The translations under genes and the position numbers were made by a program. The notes beneath the pieces were generated by a model. It was given only the letters and a program-made list of their open reading frames with translations, did not search any database and was not told the origin of the DNA. A DNA stretch of 43,302 nucleotides from Deltaproteobacteria bacterium (lineage in GTDB: Bacteria; Desulfobacterota; Desulfobaccia; Desulfobaccales; 0-14-0-80-60-11): the NCBI GenBank assembly GCA_016875015.1, contig VGSJ01000018.1, positions 1-43,302 of the forward strand, read 5' to 3'. The first letter of the stretch is position 1. Every line of letters begins with the position of its first letter. Of the stretch, positions 221 through 10,697 are shown piece after piece.

Positions 221-2539
221 TCACGCCTCTTCGAACTCCATGCCGGCCCCCTGGTCCCTAGCTTCCAGGGGCAGCCGGATGGTAAACGCGGTCCCGCCTC
301 CCCGGGGGCTGTCCGCGGTAATCGTCCCGCCGTGCCGCTGAATCACCCCGTAAACAATGGAGAGCCCCAGGCCCGTGCCTTTGCCCGGGGGTTTGGTGGT
401 AAAAAATGGTTCGAAGATCTTGTCCCGGATCTCCGGGGCAATCCCACCGCCGGTGTCGGTAAAGGTCAAAATGATCCCGTCCCTCTGGGGGGTGGGCTGG
501 CTGGCGATGGTGATCTGCCCCTGCCCATTCATGGCGTCCGCGGCATTGAGGAGCAGGTTGGTAAAGACCTGCTGCAACTGGCCCGGGTCCCCGACGATCT
601 GAGGCAGAAAGGAATCCAGTTGCTGGATGACCGTGATGTTGTGGAAAAAGGCCTGGTGGCTGAGGAGATCCACGCAGCGCTGGATGACGTCATTGGCGTC
701 AAAGAGTTTTTGCTCCCCCAGGGACTGGCGGCTAAAATCCAGCAGCCGGTGCACGATCTGCTGGCACCGCATCGTCTGGGTGATGATCACCTCGACATTT
801 TCCCGGTGGACGGCATCGGCTGCCAGGTCCCGCTGCAAGAGTTCGGCGTAGATCAGGATGCCGGCCAGGGGATTGTTGATTTCATGGGCCACCCCCGCGG
901 ACATCCTTCCCAAGGAGGCGATCTTTTCGCTATGCACCAGTTGCGCCTGGGCCGCCTCCAATTCCCGGTGGACTTTGAGGATTTCCCGCAGGTCGGAAAA
1001 AATGCCCACGCTGGCGACCTCTTCACCCCGCTCCCGGATAATAGTGGCGGAAAAGTTGACCGGCACCTCCTCGCCCTGTTTATTGATAAAGGTCATCCGG
1101 GTGGTGTTCAGCTTGTCCGGCGGCCCGTATTCATCGCTGCGCATCCGCCGCATCATCTCGGCGGCTACCTCGACCGGATAGAACCGGCGGAAGTTCTCCG
1201 CATTGCCGATCATATCCTCAGCCTTGTAGCCCAGAATCCGTTCCGCCCCTTCGTTGAAGATCAGGGGCACCCCCTTGGTGTCCACCACCACGATGCCGTC
1301 CACCGAGTTCCGAATGATGTTGGTGAAAAAGGCGTTGGTCTTCCGGAGCTCCCGTTCGATGAGTATGCGGCTGGTGAGGTCCCGCAGGTACAAACAGGTG
1401 ATGACCTTATCCCCCAGGCGCGATATCGCCATGCAGGTTTCGAAGACCCGGGGGATGTGGAACTCATCATGGGGTTTGTCCAAAATACTGCAGAAGCGGG
1501 ACTCCTGCCGCTGGCCCTGGTCCACCAGTCCCATCAGTTCTTGGGCCATGTGGAGGTGCTGGGAGGTGAGCACCTCCCCGAGGTTCTTGCCGATGAGCTC
1601 CAGCCTGGAGGAGTTCAGGATTTTGGCCATCCGGGAATTGGCGAAGACGATGCGATGGTCCTCATCCGCCATCAAGAGCCCTTCTTCGGTGAGATCAGTG
1701 AGCAGGTCAATCTTTTGTTCAGCCTCCACCACGGGGGTGATGTCGCGCACCGCCTCGAACCCGCCGATGACCCGGCCCTCGTGGTCGGTGATGATGGAGG
1801 CGGAGACGGTCACCTGCACCTTCCGGCCATCCCGAGTCCTTACGACCCGACGAATTCCAGAGATGGCGCGTTTTTGCTCCATGACCTGCTTGAGCACGCA
1901 CTCGCAGGTGCCGCACTGCTCGGTGTTGAGCAGATCCCCGCAGGTCATCCGGCCCACCACTTCGCGCAGGGTGTAACCCGTGAGCTTTTCCATGCGGTCG
2001 TTGAGGTGAGTGACCCTCAAAGACGGGTCCACCAGGAAGAAGGGCATGGGAAAATTTTCCAGGATGCTGGAGAGGATAGCCAACTGCTGCTCCATCACCG
2101 GGTGGGCCAGCAAATCGGCGTGCTCCCGGATGAGGATGAAACAGCCGGCCTTCCGGTTCTCGGCCTCCCGGATGGCAGTGGCGCTGAGGGAGAGGGGGGC
2201 GCCCAGGGGCCAGAGCGGCTTCAGCAGCACGGGGACCTGCCGGTAGCTTTCCCCGGGCTGGGGGCAGGACCAGGACCGGGACGCGTCCTCGCCGATTCCT
2301 TCCACGATGGCGTTTTCCGCACAGAGGGGACAGGGGTCTCCCGGACGCAGGGATTCCCCGAAGAGTTTTTGCGCGGCGCAGTTGAGAAAGATCACCTCCC
2401 GGTCACAGTTGGTGACCACCACCGCATCGGGGAACTTCGCCAGGAGCGGACCCAGAAACTCCACCGGCACGGCGGCGGCCCCGGTCAACGCCGGCGGCGC
2501 CTCAGGTCGGCTCGGGGGGGCGTCGTGCTCTGATTTCAT
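221..2539 (-). CDS. Multi-PAS sensor histidine kinase
   Basis: 772-aa ORF; repeated PAS-like modules, H-box '[25 protein letters not shown]', N/G boxes '[17 protein letters not shown]', '[18 protein letters not shown]'. Confidence 0.95.
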
Positions 2540-2620: not shown

Positions 2621-3676
2621 TCAGCCCCTTGCCGCGGCTGGGGCGCATTCCACCGGGGCCGCAAAGGTGTTCCCCAGGATTACCTGGGCCGCCGCCAGTT
2701 CGTGCTGGCGAATGATCAGCGAGATGGTGGAGATGGTGCAGCTCAGGGCCAACAGGGAGATATGGGCCTGCGCCAGGGCCGTAACCAAGGTGTGGGCGAT
2801 GCCGTAGCGGTCGCCGAAATGGGGCCCATGGAGAAAAATACCCGCCACCGGGGTGAGGCGCATGGGCTGGAGATCAGGCAGGTGGCTTTTCAAAACCCGC
2901 CGGATTTCCTTGCCTTGGTCGGCGCCGCCGGGTTGGCGCCGGGCCGTGGAAAACGACAGGATGAATTCTTGGCCCCCGAGCCCCGGCAGGGCCACCAAGA
3001 ACGGTATGGCCAGGCCTAGTTCGCCCATCTCCATCAGGGCGGCGGCAAAGCCTGCCAGGATGTCGGCGGTGGCGATGTGAATGCCCCAGAGGTCCAGGTC
3101 CGACTGCGGGATAATCCAATACACCTTGGTAACCTTTTCCTGGTAGGTGGCCACCACCTTCTCCAGGTATTCCTTGGGAGGGGCCTGGGCCGAAAAAAAT
3201 TCCTGGGGGGAGGCATAGCCCGGGAAGGTGAAATGCTCGAACAGTTGCTCCACCGCGGGCTTGATGCGGGAAGACGACAGCACCGCGGTGATGGCGGAGG
3301 GGGAACTGGCCAGGCCGTGGATCACCACCCGGGCCCGGGCGAGGCTCCGGATGAACGTGCCGATGACTTCGGGGCGTTTGTCGTGGGGGTAAACGGCCAG
3401 GATCGAAGTGCCCGGCTGCAAGGCCAGCGAGGCGGCGGGGTCGGCCTGGGACTGCAGCAGGGTTAAAGCGGCTTCCCCGTTGTGGCTGGCCGTGCACAAC
3501 ACCTCGCGATCACCGGCCACGTGGGTAAAAAAGGTCAGGTTGAGGCGCTGCTGGGCCAACGGCGCACACACCGACGGCCCTAGACGGTTATCTTCCAACG
3601 GAGAGGAGGACTCCACGCAGGCGCCCTCCTCCAGGACTTTAAGGCCACCTATCCGGATCCGGTCGAATTTTTCCAA
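2621..3676 (-). CDS. ACT-domain-like regulatory protein (aspartate-kinase-type ACT pair without kinase domain)
   Basis: 351-aa ORF; C-terminal 'GIAHTLVTALAQAHISLLALSCTISTISLIIRQHELAAAQVIL' and an N-terminal segment resemble ACT repeats. Confidence 0.55.
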   Translation of the reverse strand: MEKFDRIRIGGLKVLEEGACVESSSPLEDNRLGPSVCAPLAQQRLNLTFFTHVAGDREVLCTASHNGEAALTLLQSQADPAASLALQPGTSILAVYPHDKRPEVIGTFIRSLARARVVIHGLASSPSAITAVLSSSRIKPAVEQLFEHFTFPGYASPQEFFSAQAPPKEYLEKVVATYQEKVTKVYWIIPQSDLDLWGIHIATADILAGFAAALMEMGELGLAIPFLVALPGLGGQEFILSFSTARRQPGGADQGKEIRRVLKSHLPDLQPMRLTPVAGIFLHGPHFGDRYGIAHTLVTALAQAHISLLALSCTISTISLIIRQHELAAAQVILGNTFAAPVECAPAAARG

Positions 3677-3701: not shown

Positions 3702-4082
3702 TTAAAGTAATCTTTGCACCGCTTCCACCAGAGTGGCCGCATCCACGGGTTTGGGAATAAAATCTTCGGCTTCCACGCTCATCCCATCGGCATGGCTATA
3801 GCTGGTGGTGGGCACGGCCTCGCCCACCGCGGTGAGCAGGATGACGGGGATTTCCTGGGTCCACTTGTTGGATTTCAATTCCTTGCAAAGCTCGTAGCCA
3901 TTCTTTCTGGGCATCATCACGTCCAGAATCAAAACGTCCGGACGGCGCTTTTTGATGGCTTCCTCCCCTTCGATCCCGTCATAAGCCTTCCCCACTTCAA
4001 AGCCCTTGGACTCCAGCATCATGGATACGGTTTCCACCAGATCCGGATCGTCGTCGACGATCAGTATGTACTTTCCAGACAT
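3702..4082 (-). CDS. Response regulator receiver-domain protein
   Basis: 126 aa; 'ILIVDDDPDLVETVSMMLESKGFEV', 'DVLILDVMMPRKNG', 'DFIPKPVDAATL'. Confidence 0.93.
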   Translation of the reverse strand: MSGKYILIVDDDPDLVETVSMMLESKGFEVGKAYDGIEGEEAIKKRRPDVLILDVMMPRKNGYELCKELKSNKWTQEIPVILLTAVGEAVPTTSYSHADGMSVEAEDFIPKPVDAATLVEAVQRLL

Positions 4083-4196: not shown

Positions 4197-5132
4197 TTAC
4201 GCCAACTGGGGTCTGGGATAGAGGCCGCCCCGTTCCACGATTTCCTGGACTTTCTCCTCCCACTCGATGGCCATGATGTGGAAACCCCGGACGCCTTCCA
4301 CTTCTTTCAGTTCCTGGATCTGTTCCACTGCCAGGGTGATGCCTTCCTCGGCCTGCTTTTCCTTGGGGACGCCGCCGATGCGCCTGATGATGTCGTCGGG
4401 GACATCCATGCCCGGCACCCGTTTTTGCATGTATTTGGCCATGCCCACGTTCTTCATGGGGGTGATCCCCGCCAGGATGGCCACTTTTTCATGCAACCCC
4501 CGGTCCACCATCAGTTTCATGAACTCTTTGAACTTGTCCAGGTTGTAGATGCACTGGGTCTGGATGAACTGCACCCCGGCCGCCACTTTCTTGGCCAGGC
4601 GCGACACCCGCATGGCCACGTTGGGCCCCGCGAAGGGGTTGGCCGCGGCGCCGATGAACATCTGGGGGCGCACCGCAAATTCGTGGCCGCCCAACAGTTT
4701 GCCCTCATCCCGCATCATCTTCACGGTCTGGATGAGCTGGATGGAATCCAGGTCAAAGACGTTGGCGCACTTGGGGTGGTCCCCGAAGTGCTGGTGGTCC
4801 CCGGTAAGGCAGAGGATGTTGTGGATGCCGAAGGAGGCGGCCCCCAGAATATCGCTCTGGAGGGCGATGCAGTTTCTGTCCCTGGTCACCATCTGGAGAC
4901 ACGGCTCCAGCCCCATGAGCTTGAGGCGGATGCAGCACGCCAGGCTACAGACCCGGCAGACCGACGTCTGGTTGTCCGTGACGTTGATGGCATCGACGTA
5001 ATCCTTGATCAGGTTGCCCTTGTGCTCGATCACGGCGCCATCGGCGCTCCGGGGCGGACCGACCTCGGAAGTAACCGCAAAGTTGCCCGAGGCGATCATC
5101 TTCTGCAGTTTGCTGGGAGTAGTCACACTCAT
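4197..5132 (-). CDS. metF: 5,10-methylenetetrahydrofolate reductase (MetF family)
   Basis: 311-aa ORF; MetF-type 'VTSEVGPPRSAD', 'LCLTGDHQHFGDHP', 'GVQFIQTQCIYNLDKF'; 4-bp overlap with upstream metV-like gene. Confidence 0.88.
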   Translation of the reverse strand: MSVTTPSKLQKMIASGNFAVTSEVGPPRSADGAVIEHKGNLIKDYVDAINVTDNQTSVCRVCSLACCIRLKLMGLEPCLQMVTRDRNCIALQSDILGAASFGIHNILCLTGDHQHFGDHPKCANVFDLDSIQLIQTVKMMRDEGKLLGGHEFAVRPQMFIGAAANPFAGPNVAMRVSRLAKKVAAGVQFIQTQCIYNLDKFKEFMKLMVDRGLHEKVAILAGITPMKNVGMAKYMQKRVPGMDVPDDIIRRIGGVPKEKQAEEGITLAVEQIQELKEVEGVRGFHIMAIEWEEKVQEIVERGGLYPRPQLA

Positions 5133-5797
5133 ATCCGTAAATCCTCTCTGACGATCGTGCGCGGTCCGCCGTCCCGGGAAGTGGTCCAGTCCTTGGGATC
5201 CACGGGTTTCTCAAAGCGGTCCAGCTGTCCCAGGGTTTTTAGCCGCTCGTAGATCAGCTCCCAGCCGCAGGGGACGTCCTTGCTGATTTCGCACTTGCCC
5301 TGGTCGGAGCCGCCGCAGGGGCCGTTGAGCATGCGCTTGGAACATCGGGCGATGGGACAGACCCCGCCGGTTTCGGCCAGGATGCAGCGTCCGCAAGCCT
5401 GGCAGCGCTCGGCGTAGAGCCCCCGCTCCTCGTTGACCCCCAAAAAGCAGGTGTCCACCCCGGGGTAGATGATCTTGTTGTTGTACATCTCCGCCATGTA
5501 CTGGACCCCGCAGCCGCACGCCAGGGAGACCACGGCGTCGTAAGCGTCCATCTTGTCGGAGAGTTGCGCCAGGTATTCCTTTTCGCACTGCCGGGTCAGG
5601 CTGGTTTCGTCAATCTGGGCCTGCTTGCCTGCCTGGGTAAAGTAGAGCCTCAGGGCCGAGGCCAGCACCTTGGCTTCTTTCGAGCCGCCGGCTTCGCACA
5701 CGGTGACGCAACCGTCGCAGCCGACAATCAGCACTTTGGTGAAGTCTTTGACCAGGTCGAGGACTTCTTCCAGGGGTTTGGGCACTGCCTTGATCAT
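5129..5797 (-). CDS. metV: Methylenetetrahydrofolate reductase C-terminal / MetV-like zinc/FeS protein
   Basis: 222 aa; Cys-rich 'GCDGCVTVCEAGGSKEAKVLASAL', 'CQACGRCILAETGGVCPIARCSKRMLNGPCGGSDQGKCE'; overlaps neighbours on both sides. Confidence 0.85.
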   Translation of the reverse strand: MIKAVPKPLEEVLDLVKDFTKVLIVGCDGCVTVCEAGGSKEAKVLASALRLYFTQAGKQAQIDETSLTRQCEKEYLAQLSDKMDAYDAVVSLACGCGVQYMAEMYNNKIIYPGVDTCFLGVNEERGLYAERCQACGRCILAETGGVCPIARCSKRMLNGPCGGSDQGKCEISKDVPCGWELIYERLKTLGQLDRFEKPVDPKDWTTSRDGGPRTIVREDLRI

Positions 5798-6249
5798 GTG
5801 GTTACCTCCGCAATGGGCCTGACGGCCTTTCCTGTCGCAACTCTGATGGGACTGGGACCCAGTTCCATCACTTTTTCGGTGATCTCCCGGATGATCTCGG
5901 CGAACCGCCCGCCCATCCCGGAAGTCAGATTGTACATCGCCAGCCGTTCGCCGCCGACGCCGACTTTGTCCAGGATCTCCTTCACCCGGTTGCCCCGTTT
6001 TTTGGCGTAAAGATTGCCGGCGCCATAGTGGCAGTCCCCCTCCAGGCAGCCCATCACGATGACCCCGTCGGCCCCGTACTCAAAGGCCATCAGCAGGTGC
6101 ATGATGTCCACCTTGCCGGTGCAGGGGACCTCGATAATCCGCACGCTGGGCGGGTACTGCAATCGCATCGAACCTGCCAGGTCCGCGGCGGAATAAGCTC
6201 AGTAGTGGCAGCAAAACCCGACAATCTTCGGCTCAAACGATTCCATCAT
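5794..6249 (-). CDS. mvhD: MvhD-like hydrogenase iron-sulfur subunit, probable selenoprotein (in-frame UGA at 6201..6199)
   Basis: The track starts at 6168, but the frame is open from ATG 6249/6246 except for one TGA: M M E S F E P K I V G F C C H Y [TGA] A Y S A A D L A G S M R L Q Y P P S V R. 'GAGGAG' SD lies just upstream of ATG 6249; TGA occupies a family cysteine position. Confidence 0.85.
6164..6187 (-). promoter_or_regulatory. Candidate bacterial SECIS hairpin downstream of UGA
   Basis: Minus strand: CGC-GGACCU-GGC-AGGUUC-gau-GCG; 6-bp stem plus 3-bp extension across a bulge, small G-starting apical loop beginning 20 nt after the UGA. Confidence 0.6.
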
Positions 6250-6257
6250 CGGACTCC

Positions 6258-9200
6258 TCAATATAAAGTTTTGATCTTGGCGCTGATCTGGTCGTCTTCA
6301 AAATGGGCCACCTGGATGATCTTGGCCGGACATTCCGAGGCGCAGGTGCCGCAGCCCTGGCACAGGGCCTCGTTGATCTCCGAGACGTTGTCCCGGCTGA
6401 TCTGCGGAATACCGTAGGGGCAGGTCCGGACGCACACCAAGCAGGCGGCGCAGCGGTCCGGTTCCACGTGGGCGGTGATCCCGCTGATGGTCTGGTTGAC
6501 GTCCGCCAGGAACGCCCCGGCCCGGGAGGCCGCGGCCATAGCCTGGGCGATGCTCTCATTGATGAGCTTGGGGGAATGCGCCATGCCGCAGAGGAAGATG
6601 CCTTCCGAGGCAAAATCCACCGGCCGCAGCTTGGCGTGGGCCTCGATGAAAAACCCGCCGGCGTTCCGGGGGATTTTCAGGAGCGACGCCAATTCCTCGG
6701 TATCGGCGGCCCGGGCCCCGGCGCTCAACACCACCGCGTCCACGGCCATGTTGATGGGGCGGCCCAGCACGTGGTCCACAAAGGTGACGCTCAACTGACC
6801 GTTGTCGTTATTGACCTGGGGCAACCGGTCCGGCTCGAACCGGGAAAAGAGCACCCCTTTCTCCCGGGCCTCCCGGTAGTAATCCTCCAGGAACCCGTAG
6901 GTGCGCATATCCCGGTAGAGGATCACCACGTCCATGTCGGGGTTGAGGCCCTTGAGCTGCAGGGCGTACTTCACCGCCCCCTGGCAGCAGAGGCGGCTGC
7001 AGTTGGGGCTCTCGTCGTTCCGGGAGCCCACGCACTGCACCATAACCACCCGGTCCCACTTGGCGGCCGAGTCCTTCTCCCGGTGGAGAAAATCGCCCAG
7101 TTCCAGCTGGGTCATGACCCGCTCGTGTTCCCCGTAGAGAAATTCCTTGGGATGGTACTCATGGGCGCCGGTGGCCACCACGGTGATCCCGTGATCGATT
7201 TTCCGCTCGTACATGCCGGGCCCCACCAACACTTCCGTGGTGAAGTTGCCTTTGTAGCCGATGAAACCCACCACCAGGGCGCTCGTGAGCACCTGAATCT
7301 TGTTGTGGGCCTTCACTTGCTCGATGAGCCCGTCCAGGTAGGCCTGGACGTCCAGGCCCTCGATGGTTTTGTGGACCCGGCGGGCGTTGCCGCCCAGTTG
7401 CGGTTCTTTTTCCAGGAGGATGGTCTCAAATCCCTGGTCGCCCAGATTGAGGGCCGCGTTGAGGCCGGCGATGCCGCCGCCGATGACCAGGGCCCGCTGG
7501 TTGATGCTCAGGGGCTTTTCCATCAACGGCTTGAGCAGGGAAGCCCGGGCCACCGCCATCCGGACCAGGTCCTTGGCCTTGTCCGTGGCCTTGTCTTGCT
7601 CCTTCATGTGCACCCAGGAGTCCTGGTTGCGGATGTTGGCCATCTCAAACAGATACTTGTTCAAACCGGCGTCGGTCAACGTCTCCCGGAACAGGGACTC
7701 GTGGGTGATGGGGGTGCAAGCCGCCACCACCACCCGGTTGAGGTTGTGTTCCTCGATGATTTTGGTCATCTGGACCTGGGTGTCCTGGGAACAGGTGAAC
7801 AGGTTTTCTTCCACGTACGCTACATTGGGCAGCGTCTTGACATATTCCGCCAGGTCCGGCACGTTAACGATGCCGCCGATGTTGATGCCGCAGTTGCAGA
7901 CGAACACCCCGATACGGGGGGCGTCTTCCGGCCGGATGGCCTTGGGTTCGGGCGTCTTCTTGAGCCTGGTTTCGGTCCAACGGACATCCCCCAAAGAGGC
8001 GCTCACCGCCCCGGCTGCGGCCGACGCCTGCATGACCGATTCGGGAATATCTTTGGGGCCCTGCATGGCCCCGCTGACATAGATGCCCGGACGGCTTGCC
8101 GACACGGGCGCGAACGGCGAGGTGGCCACAAAATCGTGGGAGTTGGCGTCCACCCCCAGAGTAGAGGACAACTCACGGCTCGCCTGGCTCACCTCCATGC
8201 CCACGGACAGCACGATCAGGTTAAAGGTCTCGATCTTCTCTTCGCCGCTTTCATCCGCATACCGGACCTGCAAATCGCCGTCGGCCAAGGGATCGATGCT
8301 GTGGATGCGGGAACGGACGAACCGCACGCCGTGCTCGTCTTTGGCGCGGTTATAGTAGAGTTCAAAGTCTTTGCCGAAGGTGCGCATGTCCATGAAAAAT
8401 ATGGCGGTATCCAGCGGATAGGAAGCATGCTCCTTGGAGATCACCGCCTCCTTGATGGCGTACATGCAACAGACCGAGGAGCAGTAGGTGTGATATTTAA
8501 CATCCCGGGAGCCCACGCACTGGAGCCAGGCGATCTTCTTGGGCTCGGCGTGGTCCGAGGGCCGGACCAGGTGGCCGCCGAAAGGCCCCGAGGCCGAGAG
8601 AATCCGCTCGAACTCCAGCGAGGTCACGACATTGGGGAAATGGGCGTAATGGTACGTCGGATACTGGCTGGGATCGAAGGTCCTGAAACCCGGGGTCAGG
8701 ATCACCGCGCCCACTTCTAGGTCCCTTACCTGATCCTTTTGTTCCAAGTCCACCGCCCCGGTGGGACAGAACTTTTCGCAGGCCTTGCATTTTCCACCTT
8801 TCTTAAAATAGATGCAGCTGGCCTTATCAATGGCGTATTTAAGGGGCACCGCCTGGGGATACATGACGTAGGCCGACTTGCGGGTGCCCAGTCCCTGGTT
8901 GAATTCGTCCGGCACCTTTTTGGGACATTTCTCGGCGCAGACGCCGCAGCCGATACACTTGGCCAGGTCGATATAGCGAGCCGGTTGGGTTATTTTGACG
9001 GTAAAGTGTCCCGGGACTCCGTTGATGCCCTGCACCGTTGCCGGAGCCAGAATTTCGATGTTCAGGTGGCGGCCGCACTCCACCAGCTTGGGGGAAAGGA
9101 TACACATGGAGCAGTCGTTGGTGGGGAAGGTCTTGTCCAACTGGGCCATAACCCCGCCGATGGCCGGCTTGTTTTCCACCAGATACACATAAAAGCCCGA

Positions 9201-9320
9201 GTTGGCCATATCCAGGGCCGCTTGGATTCCGGCGACGCCGCCACCCACCACCATCACCGCGCCTACATTGCCGGAACGTTGGGCTGATTCTTGAGCCGTC
9301 ACGTCTTTTTCTTGGGGCAT
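6258..9320 (-). CDS. hdrA: HdrA-like FAD/iron-sulfur protein, double module
   Basis: 1020 aa; two FAD motifs ('VMVVGGGVAGIQAALDMANSG' and 'ALVIGGGIAGLNAALNLGDQG'), 'NDCSMCILSPKLVECGRH', ferredoxin clusters 'CIGCGVCAEKCP', 'CAACLVCVRTCP', 'CQGCGTCASECP'. Confidence 0.9.
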   Translation of the reverse strand: MPQEKDVTAQESAQRSGNVGAVMVVGGGVAGIQAALDMANSGFYVYLVENKPAIGGVMAQLDKTFPTNDCSMCILSPKLVECGRHLNIEILAPATVQGINGVPGHFTVKITQPARYIDLAKCIGCGVCAEKCPKKVPDEFNQGLGTRKSAYVMYPQAVPLKYAIDKASCIYFKKGGKCKACEKFCPTGAVDLEQKDQVRDLEVGAVILTPGFRTFDPSQYPTYHYAHFPNVVTSLEFERILSASGPFGGHLVRPSDHAEPKKIAWLQCVGSRDVKYHTYCSSVCCMYAIKEAVISKEHASYPLDTAIFFMDMRTFGKDFELYYNRAKDEHGVRFVRSRIHSIDPLADGDLQVRYADESGEEKIETFNLIVLSVGMEVSQASRELSSTLGVDANSHDFVATSPFAPVSASRPGIYVSGAMQGPKDIPESVMQASAAAGAVSASLGDVRWTETRLKKTPEPKAIRPEDAPRIGVFVCNCGINIGGIVNVPDLAEYVKTLPNVAYVEENLFTCSQDTQVQMTKIIEEHNLNRVVVAACTPITHESLFRETLTDAGLNKYLFEMANIRNQDSWVHMKEQDKATDKAKDLVRMAVARASLLKPLMEKPLSINQRALVIGGGIAGLNAALNLGDQGFETILLEKEPQLGGNARRVHKTIEGLDVQAYLDGLIEQVKAHNKIQVLTSALVVGFIGYKGNFTTEVLVGPGMYERKIDHGITVVATGAHEYHPKEFLYGEHERVMTQLELGDFLHREKDSAAKWDRVVMVQCVGSRNDESPNCSRLCCQGAVKYALQLKGLNPDMDVVILYRDMRTYGFLEDYYREAREKGVLFSRFEPDRLPQVNNDNGQLSVTFVDHVLGRPINMAVDAVVLSAGARAADTEELASLLKIPRNAGGFFIEAHAKLRPVDFASEGIFLCGMAHSPKLINESIAQAMAAASRAGAFLADVNQTISGITAHVEPDRCAACLVCVRTCPYGIPQISRDNVSEINEALCQGCGTCASECPAKIIQVAHFEDDQISAKIKTLY

Positions 9321-9362: not shown

Positions 9363-10235
9363 CTATAAACCGGCCGCCGCCAGGATCGACGGCAGTTTGT
9401 CCTCCCACCCGATGGTGGAAACCAGCACTCCCGGGAACCCCTGCTTTTTTACGGCAGCCACGAATTCTGCGGCGATCTGCACACACTCCCGCACCCGGTC
9501 GGAGCTTTTCTGAATCCGGGTGACGAAAGCCTCCGGGATTTTCATCTCCATGTGGGTGTTGATGTAGCGGGCCATGCCCACACTCTTCAAGAGCATGACC
9601 GTGGGAATGATGGCCGCCGGGCGCTTGCCCACCTGACGCCGGAATTTCTCCAGGACTTCCACGTCGAAAACCGGCTGGGTGGTGAAAAACCTGGCCCCCG
9701 CGGCAATTTTTTTGTCCAGGTCCGCCAGTTCCTGCTTCAGGGCTCCGGCATCGCCGGTCACCTTGACGGTTGCGCCCACCAGGAATTGCGGCGCGCCTTT
9801 GAGATCCACCCCGGCCAGGTCCCGGCCGGTCTTCAGGGTCTGGATGGCCGCGAGCAGTTCCAGGAGATTGAGGTCGTTAACCGCCTTGGCCTGATGATGG
9901 TCGCCGTGGGTGATCTCGTCTCCAGCCACCGCCATGACATTGGGGATGCCCAGGGCCTGCGCCGCCAACAGGTCGCCTTGCAGCGCCAAGCGGTTGCGGT
10001 CCCGGCAGCATACCTGCATCACCGTTTCCAGTCCCTTGGTTTGCAAAAGGAGCGCGCCGCCCAGAGAACTCAACCGCATCACGGCGTTGTTCATCTCCGG
10101 GACCACAAAGGCGTCCACCATCCGCTTGACGCCGGTGGCGCTGGCCACCATACTGGAAACATCCGTGCCTTTGGGCGGTTCCATCTCCGCCAGAATGACG
10201 AATTCGCCGGAAGTCAATTTCTCTTGTAATGGCAT
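9363..10235 (-). CDS. Second MetF-family methylenetetrahydrofolate reductase paralogue
   Basis: 290 aa; 'FVILAEMEPPKGTDVSSM', 'NVMAVAGDEITHGDHHQAKAVNDLNLLELL', 'GARFFTTQPVFDVEVLEKF'. Confidence 0.85.
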   Translation of the reverse strand: MPLQEKLTSGEFVILAEMEPPKGTDVSSMVASATGVKRMVDAFVVPEMNNAVMRLSSLGGALLLQTKGLETVMQVCCRDRNRLALQGDLLAAQALGIPNVMAVAGDEITHGDHHQAKAVNDLNLLELLAAIQTLKTGRDLAGVDLKGAPQFLVGATVKVTGDAGALKQELADLDKKIAAGARFFTTQPVFDVEVLEKFRRQVGKRPAAIIPTVMLLKSVGMARYINTHMEMKIPEAFVTRIQKSSDRVRECVQIAAEFVAAVKKQGFPGVLVSTIGWEDKLPSILAAAGL

Positions 10236-10253: not shown

Positions 10254-10697
10254 TTATTGGGATGATCGCACCATGGCGTTGGAGATGGCTAAGATGAGGT
10301 CATCCATGCCGAAGGAATTGACATGATAGTAAAAAATCCCCTGCTGCCGGATGCGGCTTTCCTGTTCCGGATTGTTTTCATCGGCAGTAATGATGATGGG
10401 GAGCTTGCGGTCCAGTCCTCTGATGATGGAGATGGCCTCATAACCCAAATCTTCCGGCAGGCGGACATCCATGACCAGTACGTTGATCTTTTCATTCTGC
10501 AGGGTCATGAGCAGGGCTTTGATGTTGTCCACGGCTTTGAGCCGGTGCCCTTGTTCGGTGATCCAGAAATCCAGGTTCTGCGACAAGGCCCCGCCGCGTT
10601 CTGCGATCAACAGTGTGCCGCCCTTTTCCGTCATCTTCAGCGCCCCGGATTTCCCGAACCGAGCTACTGCCACGGTGATTGATTCCCAATCCAGCAA
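10254..10697 (-). CDS. Receiver-domain-like protein, atypical (start possibly internal at MTEKGG)
   Basis: 147 aa; 'INVLVMDVRLPEDLGYEAISIIRGLDRKLPIIITAD' receiver-like, but conserved Lys region reads 'YYHVNSFGMDD'. Confidence 0.65.
   Translation of the reverse strand: MLDWESITVAVARFGKSGALKMTEKGGTLLIAERGGALSQNLDFWITEQGHRLKAVDNIKALLMTLQNEKINVLVMDVRLPEDLGYEAISIIRGLDRKLPIIITADENNPEQESRIRQQGIFYYHVNSFGMDDLILAISNAMVRSSQ

Follow-up and report, generated by a model that had tools for sequence, protein, structure and literature searches.

A probable selenocysteine at an in-frame UGA of a bacterial mvhD gene lying between hdrA and metVF

The minus strand of the window, that is, the whole stretch of 43,302 nucleotides of deltaproteobacterial DNA analysed here, carries a small gene of the MvhD family crossed by a TGA codon shortly after its start, and the question is whether this codon ends translation or is read as selenocysteine (Sec). 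Read directly from the window, the in-frame codons around the TGA are TTGAGGAGTCCG-ATGATGGAATCG, and translation confirms this reading, already quoted in the preliminary description: within the open reading frame 6249..5794, TGA occurs only once, at codon 17 (6201..6199), and the frame ends with another TGA, a genuine stop on the minus strand, where the gene overlaps metV by 4 nt. With TGA as U, the product has 151 residues (MMESFEPKIVGFCCHYUAYSAADLAGSMRLQYPPSVRIIEVPCTGKVD...) and a CxxU motif formed by C14 and U17. The Shine-Dalgarno-like GAGGAG noted before ATG 6249 was located at 6259..6254, overlapping the hdrA stop codon, and the second ATG (6246) could serve as the start just as well, since many relatives have a single Met there. 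Without recoding, the frame is reduced to 5794..6168 (124 aa), a start past the TGA that costs 27 residues. The conserved N-terminal Cys segment that had been said to precede this unrecoded start at 6168 proved to be part of the Pfam FlpD domain (PF02662) and to be kept in relatives; the gene scores 162.4 bits against a cut-off of 22.3, covers the profile from 1 to 123 of its 123 positions and has a match that starts before the TGA, at residue 9. An AlphaFold2 model of the product, with Sec entered as Cys, has a pLDDT of 81.9 and matches the solved MvhD chains 5odc_D, 5odh_D, 7bkb_F and 8rvu_F with TM-scores of 0.93-0.94 by target length; as modelled, the gene product would be a complete MvhD-fold protein of the FlpD family.

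Our analyses indicate that the gene very probably encodes a full-length MvhD in which the UGA of codon 17 is decoded as Sec, an incorporation that we infer from sequence comparisons. A class-wide survey of FlpD genes (159 distinct matches tabulated, the table being a lower bound) found TGA at residue 17 in at least 36 distinct genes, all 36 with TGA and never TAA or TAG at this codon, and all retaining the other five Cys of the family. The other FlpD genes of the class have Cys at this residue, except for Asp in one distant paralogue and a few partial matches, in line with the earlier expectation of a Cys where the UGA sits, and the Cys/Sec positions 14, 17, 43, 68 and 73 are nearly invariant in the class table. 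All relatives retain the protein segment around FEPKIxGFCCxY, upstream of the TGA, and none of the close homologues lacks it. TGA17 also occurs in 39 genes among the best 80 of at least 569 named-locus matches, a set whose frequencies are not population estimates, and in cultured strains (L208, L225, L230, L258). Two Sec17 mvhD genes are present in a single-contig genome of the class (3,282,536 bases), and the genome of the window has a second one, which immediately follows another hdrA on contig C91. This recurrence of the TGA together with the upstream protein segment is far beyond chance. In-frame TAA or TAG codons in some paralogues proved to be normal gene ends reached by the alignment, and a stop between two hdrA open reading frames in another genome (G010, L182), considered as a Sec codon, was rejected as its coordinates indicate a frame change. 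In one genome (G028, L184:3355-4334), a Cys17 and a Sec17 mvhD stand in tandem between hdrA and metV, possibly as a selenium-dependent pair of alternatives.

The sequence GCGGACCTGGCAGGTTCGATG (6186..6166), 12 nt after the UGA, contains a hairpin of 7 bp, CGGACCU-GGC-AGGUUCG (6169..6185, minus strand), which we defined from the comparative data of this analysis. It starts 13 nt past the UGA, with 20 nt between UGA and loop, and has the position just downstream of the UGA and the G in the loop expected of a bacterial SECIS. Codons 22-28, which correspond to this 21-mer, are invariant in 36 of 36 Sec17 genes of the class, unlike codons 18-21 and 29-33, where the same genes use two to five synonyms; at codons 22-28 themselves, as many as four synonyms are seen in the Cys paralogues. 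When the class genes are taken together with the best 80 of at least 569 named-locus matches, the 21-mers encoding ADLAGSM come in only 4 distinct forms in 71 Sec genes versus 34 in 36 Cys genes, a concentration reached by none of 10,000 relabelings, a procedure that ignores relatedness. The hairpin is near-identical in Thermodesulfobacteriota and Bacillota (Desulfovirgula L225, Desulfofundulus L230, Desulfotruncus L258), with differing flanking synonymous sites; the clear exceptions among Sec17 genes are L220, with three changes, and L200, with a different sequence. The latter (L200:1908) is a distant Sec17 MvhD from a Chloroflexi metagenome-assembled genome, and its sequence without the common hairpin suggests an independent SECIS or origin.

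As the hairpin is invariant in most Sec17 genes, its covariation rests on the comparison with paralogues that carry Sec at residue 68, whose hairpins (AUUACCU-GGA-AGGUAAU or AUUUCCU-GGA-AGGAAAU) start 16 nt after their own UGA. With both sets combined, 95.6% of cells pair, and double changes occur at five of the seven pairs. None of 500 shuffles reaches the observed share of paired cells or the observed covariation score, while 74 of 500 reach the bare count of double-changed pairs, and the structure is lost when the alignment is slid by 1-3 columns. A covariance model built on the hairpin found exactly the two Sec17 mvhD genes in the 3.1 Mb genome at E < 1e-4, the next match having an E of 0.29 or worse, and across 29 genomes of the class it matched almost only mvhD genes. 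Weak matches (L194, L195 and L196, E 0.29 to 2.6) were taken as chance, with no mvhD frame at L194 and L195. An Rfam scan of the gene at a relaxed threshold gave chance matches only, no family matching the hairpin, and a comparison of the hairpin region with plasmids detected no DNA similarity. This constraint at the RNA level is, as judged from the sequences compared, the strongest evidence for Sec.

These observations bear on an alternative in which translation ends at the TGA and the protein is made from the later start at 6168, deprived of its first Cys pair. An unrecoded frame does exist there (5794..6168), but such a reading is highly improbable, as the residues encoded ahead of the TGA show protein-level conservation in all relatives and lie inside the Pfam domain, TGA is the only stop found at codon 17 in 36 of 36 genes, and the RNA constraint downstream would be left unexplained.

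The genes of the Sec machinery, selA, selB, selC (tRNA-Sec) and selD, whose search had been advised, are all present in the window's own genome (3.1 Mb in 148 contigs, 99.96% complete), with one tRNA-Sec of anticodon TCA confirmed by ARAGORN. The selD of this genome (L016, G000:C82) has an in-frame TGA of its own, and is itself a selenoprotein gene, with a hairpin after the UGA unlike that of mvhD. Among the 29 genomes of the class, selA occurs in 27 and tRNA-Sec in 24; those without one or the other are, all but one, many-contig or incomplete drafts, and the single-contig genome is not among them.

Equally improbable, in our opinion, is that the UGA is read as another residue (Trp, or Cys by a near-cognate tRNA) or acts as a programmed pause with regulatory truncation, the hairpin being then a readthrough or regulatory element. 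The identity of the inserted residue is predicted from sequence, which leaves some room for this explanation, but the Sec system is complete, Cys is the other occupant of position 17, the aligned residue of an archaeal VhuD is non-standard, and FrhD/MvhD is treated as an accepted Sec family in two publications (PMC1794560, PMC13188914). Still less credible is a sequencing or assembly error for TGC or TGT, or a pseudogene, in an assembly of 148 contigs, because the same TGA recurs in many independent assemblies, including a single-contig genome and cultured strains, two Sec17 mvhD genes are found in the same genome, and purifying selection acts at both protein and RNA level. The proposal of the preliminary description that the UGA encodes Sec is supported by machinery, recurrence and hairpin alike; a chemical role beside or on the [2Fe-2S] cluster is one that Sec17 may have.

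Decoding of UGA as Sec could proceed as follows. The ribosome would start at 6249 or 6246, just past the hdrA stop, and reach the UGA at codon 17, where SelB on the hairpin 14-30 nt downstream would bring the Sec-tRNA; the terminal UGA of mvhD, without such a hairpin, would terminate. The 21-mer occurs once in the window, and since neither the terminal UGA nor the UGA stop of hdrA is accompanied by the hairpin, it is plausibly the hairpin that decides how a UGA is read. A [2Fe-2S] cluster has been described for MvhD/ElpC (PMC12350162), and Sec17 of the CxxU motif would be located at or next to this cluster.

In many related MvhD genes the UGA stands at residue 68 rather than 17 and has its own hairpin (L061-L075 and L142-L167 in the class; L208, L222, L232, L243 and L248 among the named loci). 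The class genes comprise 36 with Sec17, 35 with Sec68 and none with both (Fisher p 1e-5, in a test that ignores relatedness and on a table that is a lower bound), and the double form is likewise absent from the best 80 of at least 569 named-locus matches. On a tree of 119 columns and 234 rows with many unresolved forks, no more than 3 changes are required for each label if it is set against the other one. At the same five named loci (L208, L222, L232, L243, L248), a Sec68 MvhD lies about 4 kb upstream of a Sec17 MvhD, with hdrA between them. Several Cys68 paralogues (L126, L118, L131, L134) have a nearly complete hairpin of the Sec68 type after the Cys codon, possibly a fossil SECIS left by a Sec-to-Cys change. 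We propose tentatively, as an idea that is quite possible though somewhat short of probable, that bacterial MvhD, unlike the archaeal VhuD with both, uses either residue 17 or residue 68 as its Sec site, the two sites excluding each other within a protein and each being served by a separate SECIS in the coding region, with the apical motif CCU-GG-N-AGG in common; that the Sec68 and Sec17 MvhD flanking a shared HdrA at the five loci may tune two arms of one bifurcating complex; and that the Sec17 form marks a selenium-dependent HdrA-MvhD-MetVF methylene-tetrahydrofolate (methylene-THF) reductase.

The neighbourhood of the gene, entirely on the minus strand, comprises in order a response regulator (10254..10697), a second metF-family gene upstream of hdrA (9363..10235), hdrA (6258..9320), mvhD(Sec) (5794..6249), metV (5129..5797; Pfam DUF5981, methylene-THF reductase C-terminal), metF (methylenetetrahydrofolate reductase, 4197..5132), another response regulator (3702..4082), an ACT-domain protein (2621..3676) and a PAS histidine kinase (221..2539). 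The assignments come from Pfam, and the order, including that of mvhD-metV-metF and of the regulatory neighbours, is conserved in the relatives inspected. Profile search shows that hdrA codes for a protein of 1020 aa with two HdrA-type flavin modules and Fer4 domains. The arrangement hdrA-mvhD-metV-metF recurs in nearly all named loci whose contig reaches far enough (among the best 80 of at least 569 matches). No HdrB- or HdrC-type protein was detected among the genes scanned on either side of mvhD, and because hdrB and hdrC are not adjacent we do not class the system as an HdrCBA-MvhD-MetVF complex, only as one that may work like it. The window HdrA (6258-9320, diverging at 8714-9055) is devoid of a GltD-like insert of about 460 aa (Fer4_20 + Pyr_redox_2), which is present in its closest relatives (L197, of 1484 aa, L198 and L199) and in the other HdrA that this genome encodes (L178); the insert-less form may draw its electrons from another donor, or else recombination or misassembly may have affected this part of the sequence.

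Sec-containing bacterial MvhD/FrhD proteins have already been published, and the gene studied here belongs to that known class. We found no description in the open-access literature, within an incomplete coverage of it, of Sec in a MetVF-linked MvhD, of the non-co-occurrence of Sec17 and Sec68, or of a near-frozen Sec17 SECIS across two phyla. Standard annotation truncates the members of this family, with loss of Sec and of the conserved Cys that precedes it. The near-identical SECIS in Thermodesulfobacteriota and Bacillota and the two separate Sec sites offer clean tests of SelB recognition and of the role of selenium in the vicinity of a [2Fe-2S] cluster from which a bifurcating flavin is supplied.

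Among solved structures, the best sequence match is the archaeal VhuD-type MvhD (PDB 9sfi_K, 9t1s; E 4e-39). At the position that aligns with U17, chain 9sfi_K has a non-standard residue (X) that is very likely Sec, and it has a second one where the MvhD described here has Cys68. The archaeal SECIS lies outside the coding frame, unlike the bacterial one found here. We do not name our protein VhuD because its score with the NCBIfam model (NF045873) is 155.7 bits, below the cut-off of 215. For bacteria, earlier work records Sec-containing FrhD/MvhD in Deltaproteobacteria, in Syntrophobacter fumaroxidans and others, with 19 bacterial cases by 2006 and hdrA-frhD operons (PMC1794560); Desulfobacterium autotrophicum is credited with four Sec mvhD (mvhD1, 2, 3 and 5; PMC2702500), and a 2026 review includes PF02662 in its list of Sec families with the motif CxxU (PMC13188914). 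Our gene resembles those of the deltaproteobacterial proteins in its PF02662 domain, its Sec encoded by UGA with bacterial machinery and its adjoining hdrA, but the operon metF-hdrA-mvhD-metV-metF differs from their hdrA-frhD-frhG-frhA arrangement. The Moorella thermoacetica/Sporomusa ovata system differs in that its clusters have the hdrB and hdrC genes that are not adjacent here; the HdrA without GltD-like insert is a further difference, and the Moorella loci (L210, L212) have the same gene order but Cys at residue 17. The HdrCBA-MvhD-MetVF system (PMC9430772) has in common with the window the hdrA-mvhD-metV-metF order and a closely related MvhD, and the complex type has experimental support in S. 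ovata, where pull-downs tie MvhD to HdrA, HdrB and MetF, in a set at the membrane. From the operon order and this parallel, MvhD(Sec) would most likely pass electrons between HdrA and MetVF within a putative HdrA-MvhD-MetVF complex of the Moorella/Sporomusa type; MetVF is the methylene-THF reductase in the methyl branch of the Wood-Ljungdahl pathway, and the complex would reduce methylene-THF or run the reaction backwards.
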